Positions 27,117 through 29,611 of a stretch of DNA of 32,290 nt are shown here, one piece after another. Within the stretch, counting starts at the first letter, position 1. Every line of letters begins with the position of its first letter. The DNA comes from Candidatus Olsenella stercoravium (lineage in GTDB: Bacteria; Actinomycetota; Coriobacteriia; Coriobacteriales; Atopobiaceae). Position numbers and translations under genes: made by a program. The stretch covers positions 1 to 32,290 of the forward strand of contig DXBZ01000063.1 of NCBI GenBank assembly GCA_019116265.1. The letters run 5' to 3'. The notes under the pieces are model-generated. The model was given only the letters and a program-made list of their open reading frames with translations. It searched no databases and was not told the origin of the DNA.

Positions 27117-28019
27117 GTGTTGTCCGGTCGAACAGGACGAAGCGTTGCCTTCGCGTTCGCGGCGGCGGCGCTCTATGCGCTGAGCACGCCGTTTTCCAAG
27201 GTGCTGCTTGCCGATATCGCGCCGAACATGATGGCGGCGTTGCTGTACCTTGGCGCGGGCGCCGGCATGACGGTGCTTTCGCTCGCTGACGGCGTGCGCG
27301 GAGACGCGGGCGAGGCGCGCGGACGGTCCCTCGAGCGGACGGACGTCCCCTACGTGGCCGCGATGGTCGCGCTCGACGTGGCGGCGCCCCTGCTGCTCAT
27401 GGCCGGGCTCTCCCTCTCGTCGGCGGAGAGCGTCTCGCTGCTGAACAACTTCGAGATCGTGGCGACCGCCCTTATCGCCCGCCTCGCGTTCGGGGAGCGG
27501 GTGGGGGTGCGTGCGGCAGTCGGCATCGGTGCCATCTCCCTGGCGTGCGCTCTCCTGTCTTGGGACGCGGGCGCGCGCGGGTTCTCCGCCGGCTCGCTTC
27601 TCACGCTTGCGGCATGTCTGTGCTGGGGCATCGAGAACAACTGCACGAACAGGTTGTCGGACTGCGATCCGGTCAAGGTCGTCGTCATCAAGGGGTGGGG
27701 CTCTGGCGCGGGCGCGCTCGTCGTGGCGCTCTGCGCGGGAGACGCCCTGCCGATGCTCGTCGACGCGTGGCTCGCACTCCTGCTCGGGTTCGTCTCGTAC
27801 GGGCTGTCGATTGCCTGCTACGTGCGCGCCCAGCGCGACCTGGGAGCGGCGCGAACGAGCGCGTTCTACGCGGTGAACCCCTTCATCGGCAGCGCGCTGG
27901 CGTTCGCGCTGTTCCGCACGCCGCTCGCCCCGACGTTCGCCGTCGCGCTCGTTCTCATGGCGCTCGGCACATGGCTCGTGGCGCCGCGAGAGCCTAGTGC
28001 GTCTCGCCCACCAGCTTGA
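27117..28019 (+). CDS. EamA/DMT-superfamily exporter
   Basis: This protein of about 300 residues has ten likely membrane segments in two EamA repeats (FAAAALYALSTPFSKVLLADIAP, then LLTLAACLCWGIENNCTNRLS at the second repeat, ending VALVLMALGTWLVAP). Members export metabolites, amino acids or drugs; the substrate is not clear. GTG 27117 is chosen because GGGGAGG at 27101-27107 gives normal spacing and MLSGRTGRSVAFAF enters directly into the first membrane helix. An earlier ATG would add 37 non-family residues. Its 3' end overlaps the convergent SMR gene by 26 bases. Confidence 0.85.
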   Translation: MLSGRTGRSVAFAFAAAALYALSTPFSKVLLADIAPNMMAALLYLGAGAGMTVLSLADGVRGDAGEARGRSLERTDVPYVAAMVALDVAAPLLLMAGLSLSSAESVSLLNNFEIVATALIARLAFGERVGVRAAVGIGAISLACALLSWDAGARGFSAGSLLTLAACLCWGIENNCTNRLSDCDPVKVVVIKGWGSGAGALVVALCAGDALPMLVDAWLALLLGFVSYGLSIACYVRAQRDLGAARTSAFYAVNPFIGSALAFALFRTPLAPTFAVALVLMALGTWLVAPREPSASRPPA

Positions 28020-28317
28020 GGCCGATGACGCACGCCACAAGGCCCGCGATGAGCAGGGTCTTTGCCCATGAGAACGACTCCGCGCCGGAGGCGACGCCCC
28101 ACGCCACCGTGAGCGCGGCGCCGATGCCCACCCAGACGGCGTATGCCGTGCCCAGCGGAATCGTGCGAACGGCGTGGCTCAGGCCGAGCATGCTCGCCGT
28201 GAGGGCGACGAGAAACACGATTGAGGGGACGGGCTGTGAGAAGCCCTCGGAGCGGTCGAGGGCCTGGGCCCACACGGCCTCCATCGCGCCCGACACGACC
28301 AAGATGACCCAATCCAT
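27994..28317 (-). CDS. gdx: SMR-family guanidinium exporter (Gdx/SugE type)
   Basis: This 107-residue protein has four membrane helices of the small multidrug resistance family. MDWVILVVSGAMEAVWAQAL carries the essential helix-1 glutamate (Glu13) in the Gdx/SugE style, GFSQPVPS follows, and GTAYAVWVGIGAALT is the SMR signature; it ends IGLKLVGETH as Gdx proteins do. Gdx exports guanidinium in exchange for protons as a dual-topology dimer. GGAGG sits five bases before ATG 28317. A guanidine-III-type aptamer lies directly upstream on the same strand, which supports guanidinium as substrate. Confidence 0.93.
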   Translation of the reverse strand: MDWVILVVSGAMEAVWAQALDRSEGFSQPVPSIVFLVALTASMLGLSHAVRTIPLGTAYAVWVGIGAALTVAWGVASGAESFSWAKTLLIAGLVACVIGLKLVGETH

Positions 28318-28335: not shown

Positions 28336-28375
28336 GCGCCGTCTTTGCGATTCTGGTACGGCTGCCCTCGTCAGA
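28336..28375 (-). promoter_or_regulatory. Guanidine-III (mini-ykkC-III type) riboswitch aptamer
   Basis: Read on the minus strand, the leader of gdx contains TCTGACGAGG, GCAGCCGTACCAGA and AAAGACGGCGC in order. This matches the known guanidine-III layout: short stem P1 (TCTG with CAGA here), the GACGAGG segment, CCGTACC, and the AAGACGGCGC strand that pairs back with GCAGCCGT (one bulged A) to form the pseudoknot. The aptamer ends 18 bases before the start, so the ribosome site GGAGG is close enough for control of translation. The assignment is from recalled consensus and local pairing. Confidence 0.85.
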
Positions 28376-28426: not shown

Positions 28427-28639
28427 GAGGTTTGGGTTCAAGTTTTAGCGGTTTCTCGAGTAGGCGGTTACAGAACTCCAGCTCAGCGGGGCGGGTTGTC
28501 TGCCGGCCCTGACGGCGTGAACCCAAACCGGAAAACGGTTTGGGTTCACCACGAGCCTATAGTGCAAAAGCGCGAAGCCGTTACCTGCACGTATGTAACC
28601 TGATACTCGCGAAACCGCCGGAACGTGAACCCAAACCTC
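28427..28639. repeat. 213-bp nested inverted-repeat element (GGTTTGGGTTCA)
   Basis: Outer arms GAGGTTTGGGTTCA (28427-28440) and exact complement (28626-28639) are extended inward by further imperfect pairing (GCGGTTTCTCGAGTA with TACTCGCGAAACCGC). In the middle, GTGAACCCAAACCG (28517-28530) and its exact complement (28536-28549) form a tight hairpin with a 5-base loop. The core thus occurs four times, alternating in orientation. It is a REP/MITE-like element. Its left edge borders the gdx promoter. Confidence 0.75.
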
Positions 28640-28783: not shown

Positions 28784-29611
28784 ATGGCCATCAAGGACGT
28801 CATCACCGCCATCCGCAAGGAGGCGGGCATTACGCAGGAAGAAATGGCGCGCAGGCTCTACGTGACGCGGCAGGCCGTCAGCCGCTGGGAGCAAGGCGAG
28901 ACGACCCCCGGGATCGACATGGTCAAGCTCATCTGCGTCACCTTCGGCGTGCCGCTCGAGCGCTTCTTTGACATGCCCATGAGCTACTACTGCCAGTGCT
29001 GCAGCATGCCCATCCCCGACGAGGAGATGCACGGCACCGAGGCCGACGGCTCCAAGAGCGTGGACTTCTGCAAGTTCTGCTACGACCACGGAGACTTCAC
29101 CGCCAAGGGCATGACGATGGACGAGTTCATCGAGGCCACGGCCCCCATGGAGGCCAAGGCGCTCGGCGTCTCCCTCGACGAGGCGGTCTCGCTCATGGCC
29201 ACGCTGCTGCCGCATCTCAAGCGCTGGCGCGAGGTCGCCGAGAACGAGGCGGCCTACGGCGAGGAGGTTCGGGCTGCCTACGGCGACGAGGTGATGGATA
29301 CTGCTAACGAGAAGTACGTGGCGATGGGGGAGGCCGCCCACCTGCAGGCCGAGGAGCTGGCGCTGGCCATCAACGAGCAGCTGCGCCGCGCTATGGAGGC
29401 GGGAGACCCGGCCGGTCCGGAGGCGCGCAAGCTCGTTGCGATGCACGGCCACTGGCTGCGCATGTACTGGCCGGATGGCCTCTACACGCCCGAGGCCCAC
29501 AAGAGCCTGGCCGATGGTTACGTCTCCGACGAGCGGTTTCGCGCGTACTACGAGAAGGTGGCCCCAGGCGCTGCGCAGTTCCTGCGCGACGCAATCCACG
29601 CGTGCGTGTGA
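28784..29611 (+). CDS. XRE HTH - zinc ribbon - TipAS-like regulator
   Basis: This 275-residue protein has three parts. Residues 1-62 are an XRE helix-turn-helix (IRKEAGITQEEMARRLYVTR, QAVSRWEQGETTPGIDMVKL). Residues 66-110 are a zinc ribbon with Cys70, Cys73, Cys96 and Cys99 (CQCCSMPI and CKFC). Residues about 155-275 resemble the TipAS ligand-binding domain (HGHWLRMYWPDGLYTPEAH, ADGYVSDERFRAYYEKVAPG, AAQFLRDAI). TipAS domains bind thiopeptide antibiotics and usually follow a MerR domain. Here an XRE domain takes that place. ATG 28784 follows GGAGGA. No exporter adjoins on the same strand; gdx lies upstream, transcribed the other way. Confidence 0.87.
   Translation: MAIKDVITAIRKEAGITQEEMARRLYVTRQAVSRWEQGETTPGIDMVKLICVTFGVPLERFFDMPMSYYCQCCSMPIPDEEMHGTEADGSKSVDFCKFCYDHGDFTAKGMTMDEFIEATAPMEAKALGVSLDEAVSLMATLLPHLKRWREVAENEAAYGEEVRAAYGDEVMDTANEKYVAMGEAAHLQAEELALAINEQLRRAMEAGDPAGPEARKLVAMHGHWLRMYWPDGLYTPEAHKSLADGYVSDERFRAYYEKVAPGAAQFLRDAIHACV

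Follow-up and report, generated by a model that had tools for sequence, protein, structure and literature searches.

A guanidine-III riboswitch very probably heads the mRNA for a Gdx-type guanidinium/H+ exporter on the minus strand of the window, i.e., the whole stretch of 32,290 nucleotides from the gut-type actinobacterium Candidatus Olsenella stercoravium that was analysed. Judged by its sequence, the element is a genuine riboswitch located before the Gdx gene and an ordinary member of the known class, with an aptamer core at 28336-28375. Its assignment to this class and strand, as proposed in a sequence-only reading of the region, is borne out by a full-length, sub-threshold match to the Rfam family Guanidine-III (RF01763) and by a score of 68 bits with a covariance model built for the clade. 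The expected pairing of riboswitch and exporter is otherwise confirmed, and would mean that Atopobiaceae and related Coriobacteriia control the detoxification of guanidine through an RNA element.

The RF01763 match (28393-28333, minus strand) covers model positions 1-67, which is the full length, and contains no non-standard pair. It scores 28.4 bits, with an E-value of 3.4e-4 when 361 nt were searched at relaxed thresholds and of 4.1e-4 across the whole 1.84-Mb genome, where it ranks second. Because the gathering score of the family is 36 bits, no match was reported when the whole window was scanned at the Rfam default threshold: the sequence of the element has diverged too far to reach the standard cut-off. 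The covariance search suggested earlier returns this match at relaxed thresholds and nothing at the default one, and the absence of a hit, which had been named as a refutation, would mislead in the case of a copy lying below that threshold.

The clade covariance model was built from 27 Coriobacteriia sequences, leaving out both the window's clade and a second copy found on contig C15 of the same genome. When the genome was searched with this model, the window copy obtained its 68 bits with an E-value of 7.4e-17, while the best match apart from the C15 copy reached only 21 bits. With the same model the element scored at least 62 bits in 25 of the genus's 31 genomes, among them the genome that contains the window, and a model adjusted to the Coriobacteriia in this way picks up sub-threshold copies cleanly. 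The score under the Rfam cut-off could be taken to indicate a chance resemblance within a GC-rich leader, but the probability of this is negligible: it is rejected by the clade-model score together with the compensated P1 pairs described below, and the conserved position before gdx speaks against it as well.

The top RF01763 match of the genome (38.3 bits) is the second copy (C15:35972-36036, minus strand; locus L001), which precedes a paralogous Gdx-type SMR gene. Both copy types are also present in the congeners G086 and G092, while most congeners carry one. The third to fifth RF01763 matches of the genome (22 bits or less, inside long ORFs) were taken as chance, and matches of the site to further Rfam families (sR9 snoRNA, rdlD, cow-rumen-1 and ZNRD1-AS1_3, with E-values of 1.5-9.9) were rejected. 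The second copy, the sub-threshold score and an extra 5′ hairpin were absent from the sequence-only reading.

With nucleotides numbered as in the structure from Thermobifida fusca (PMC5696562), the window aptamer comprises 40 nt and is the counterpart of the crystallised 41-nt aptamer, so that the span indicated earlier (28336-28375) equals the crystallised extent. As in the guanidine-III class (ykkC-III, RF01763; T. fusca 5NWQ), it can be folded into an H-type pseudoknot with P1, P2 and the third strand ACGAGG. The pseudoknot is preceded by a 5′ hairpin (P0, GACCC-AAC-GGGTC, 28388-28376, with arms at 28388-28384 and 28380-28376), corresponding to model positions 6-20 of the Rfam family. P1 is formed by UCUG (28375-28372) and CAGA (28355-28352), the letters that had been proposed for it, and is followed by the third strand (28371-28366), which holds A5, C6 (28370), G7 (28369) and A8. 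P2 consists of GC(A)GCCGU (28365-28358), with a bulged A at 28363, and ACGGCGC (28342-28336), which shows no non-standard pair in the RF01763 alignment. The pseudoknot strand AAGACGGCGC (28345-28336) is present as given in the sequence-only reading. A28357-C28356 corresponds to A19-C20, and the joint AUCGCAAA (8 nt, 28351-28344) is followed by G28343, equivalent to G34.

The nucleotides reported to contact guanidine in this class are C6, G7 and G17 (PMC5696562), all of which are retained in the window (C28370, G28369 and G28359), as are A5, A8 and G34; A19-C20 and A32-A33-G34 are likewise shared with T. fusca. The differences from the T. fusca element lie in P1 (UCUG/CAGA against CCGG/CCGG), in the 8-nt joint, with C-A instead of A-C at positions 30-31, in P2, with the bulged A and without a residue matching U11, and in the distance to the Shine-Dalgarno (SD) sequence (8 nt against 16); the score below the Rfam cut-off also sets the window copy apart. 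The core joint of the class, G29-A-C-A-A-G34, is thus not matched, the window reading GCAAAG. The differences in joint and P2 leave the ligand contacts untouched.

Leaders were collected from 140 genomes of the family (36 positive), 300 genomes of the class (46 positive) and, within Actinomycetota, 80 named SMR loci, of which 44 showed the core upstream; the Coriobacteriia copies that were read are located before Gdx genes. Judged by its named relatives, the window's genome belongs near Thermophilibacter/Olsenella. Over 76 distinct leaders P1 is Watson-Crick paired in 301 of 304 cells, compared with a mean of 243 and a maximum of 259 after shuffling, a statistic that takes the leaders as they stand and ignores their kinship. 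Changes in P1 are of several kinds and, listed by lineage, are compensated: CCGG/CCGG in Actinomycetia, GCGG/CCGC in two Intrasporangiaceae leaders, CCUG/CAGG in other Coriobacteriia and UCUG/CAGA in the window's clade. The inner three pairs of P2 are invariant in these leaders, while 15-38 and 14-39 mostly vary together. Only 17 of the 36 positive family genomes yield an RF01763 match over the cut-off, which shows that roughly half of the lineage's copies go unreported at that threshold. In the G086 orthologue (L165; C20:232905-232962) C36 is replaced by U, so that the ligand-binding pair becomes a G17-U36 wobble; this copy is missed by the Rfam model at an E-value of 0.001 and scores 62 bits with the clade model.

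Positions 30-31 read CA or AA in 43 of 45 Coriobacteriia leaders, compared with AC in 30 of 31 Actinomycetia leaders, and CA at these positions, the 8-nt joint and the bulged A in P2 are common to most Coriobacteriia copies. This distribution could mean that the joint and the P2 bulge tune the guanidine-III fold to a relative of guanidine, for instance methylguanidine or agmatine, instead of guanidine itself. Such a change of ligand is very unlikely, given that C6, G7 and G17 are all retained, that positions 30-31 have been described merely as stacked bases, that the switch controls, like canonical members of the class, a Gdx-type gene, and that AA also occurs in one Rhodococcus leader type (L118). 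Since the GCAAAG or GAAAAG joint is shared by 43 of the 45 Coriobacteriia leaders, including copies above the Rfam cut-off, the variant is regarded as lineage variation within the class and no bar to membership. A broader proposal, which we consider improbable, is that the Coriobacteriia elements form a structurally distinct subtype (P1 CCUG/CAGG or UCUG/CAGA, a bulged A in P2, and C-A or A-A at 30-31 of an 8-nt joint), set apart by an affinity or ligand range peculiar to it and complemented in the window's clade by a strand exchange in which the 5′ strand of P2 and the 3′ strand of P1 would pair with the SD region without guanidine.

The promoter and ribosome site that had been noticed next to the aptamer are both present. 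The promoter is sigma-70-like (TTGAGA-18-TACGAT, the -10 box being preceded by TG) and occupies 28424-28395 (minus strand; 9 of 12 matches); it is the sole site in the region, against 0.1 expected. An SD sequence, GGAGG (28327-28323), lies 8 nt past the aptamer and 5 nt before the ATG at 28317, and the short distance between aptamer and SD is retained in most relatives. The extended -10 box recurs 18-28 nt upstream of P1 in most Coriobacteriia copies; for this reason the aptamer probably opens the transcript, even though the -35 box is not conserved among these copies. From the position of the -10 box, P0 is probably the 5′ end of the transcript. The 5′ hairpin, the placement between promoter and SD and the SMR exporter gene are features shared with the guanidine-III class. 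No terminator was found near the aptamer and the gene, and transcriptional control through a terminator was rejected on this ground. As the aptamer sits between the extended -10 box and the SD, a translational ON switch is the most likely mode of action.

Guanidine is a toxic compound. By analogy with the class, guanidinium that accumulates in the cell would bind between G7 and G17 and dock the third strand into P2, stabilising the H-type pseudoknot. Competing folds over the ribosome site would then be lost and the SD freed, the 5′ end would probably be shielded from RNase E, and the exporter would be translated at a higher rate and pump guanidinium out. For the class it has been reported that guanidinium forms a bridge between G7 and G17 and brings the third strand into P2, stabilising the pseudoknot and freeing the SD (PMC5696562), and that guanidine-III protects mRNA from RNase E (review PMC12186494); the ON direction of the class is described in both (PMC5696562; PMC12186494).

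Folding computations were in line with this direction. The computed cost of opening the SD drops once the aptamer has formed in all 20 leaders of the genus that were folded, with the 5′ hairpin included. A candidate anti-SD helix pairs GGCAGCC (28366-28360) with GGUUGCC (28324-28318) and would hide the SD and exclude P2. In a short leader the opening cost falls from 8.2 kcal/mol to 3.4 with the aptamer formed, and only 2-4 of 200 shuffled tails match the effect of this helix. It nevertheless fails the control in the full leader of the window, which includes the 5′ hairpin, where 51 of 100 shuffled tails equal it. For cognate aptamer-tail pairs the mean over all Coriobacteriia is 2.4 kcal/mol (chimeras 1.8-2.4), and in Actinomycetia cognate pairs fall below their chimeras (0.7 against 1.0-1.4); coevolution of aptamer and tail is not demonstrated, as natural combinations have no clear advantage over chimeras. 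When a sister-clade aptamer is joined to a tail from the window's clade, the opening difference (6.1) is nearly that of the natural pair (6.9); most of the effect is therefore due to the tail together with the shared P2 strand, and not to the clade-specific P1. In these models the predicted ON direction is supported, while the particular SD-hiding helix is not.

That result also bears on the proposal that the switch works chiefly by stabilising the mRNA, with a ligand-stabilised pseudoknot at the 5′ terminus blocking RNase E and only a minor part for SD release. The predicted transcript start at the 5′ hairpin, the RNase E protection reported for the class and an SD-hiding pairing no better than control in the full leader are all consistent with it. 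It is set against an aptamer that ends 8 nt from the SD, at a short spacing that most relatives have kept, and is considered rather unlikely as the main effect. The two modes, mRNA stabilisation and SD release, are compatible and not exclusive, and translational control stays the preferred reading.

The gene behind the switch (27994-28317, minus strand) encodes an SMR transporter of 107 aa that belongs, as proposed earlier, to the Gdx (SugE) type. The protein matches Pfam PF00893 (5e-21; 75 bits, cut-off 23.7) and, over residues 1-102, aligns without gaps to Gdx-Clo (6WK5; E 5.9e-19). E13, W16, S42, Y59 and W62 are all present, as is G64-I65-G66 shared with Gdx-Clo and SugE; W16 has been reported to separate Gdx from Qac proteins (PMC7695847). 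Portal residues 39 and 43 differ, being L and M compared with M and F in Gdx-Clo, and the score with the NCBIfam SugE equivalog model (84.4 bits) is below its cut-off of 126, though no other SMR model matches better; the protein is a putative guanidinium exporter. The sequence-only reading held that the riboswitch fixes the exporter substrate as guanidinium. Riboswitch class and binding-site residues do make guanidinium the most likely substrate, but this falls short of proof, as methyl- and aminoguanidine are ligands of the guanidine-III class as well (PMC5696562). A tree of the SMR gene had too few columns to resolve a single origin of the window's clade.

The SMR gene is convergent with an EamA transporter gene on the plus strand, which ends at 28019, and the two overlap by 26 bp (27994-28019); an EamA neighbour also adjoins the G086 orthologue. 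Upstream, the riboswitch promoter is abutted by two 101-bp units (28429-28529 and 28537-28637, region 28429-28637) with 12/13-bp terminal inverted repeats, GGTTTGGGTTCA(C)..(G)TGAACCCAAACC. The 13-mer GTGAACCCAAACC occurs 48 times in the window's genome (0 for a reversed-pattern control) and 68 times in G086, whereas other congeners have few occurrences or none. The units fall into length classes around 91, 101-102 and 111-112 bp, which differ by about a helical turn, and adjacent units are often separated by 7 bp; their interiors are largely unrelated, save for a loose central motif like AAAACCGCAGGTAA. Units are also found upstream of the same gene in G087 and G107. Beyond them, a regulator gene (28784-29611, plus strand) combines HTH_3, a zinc ribbon (PF12674) and a TipAS antibiotic-recognition domain in one protein. 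Its HTH is of the Xre type; that of TipAL is of the MerR type.
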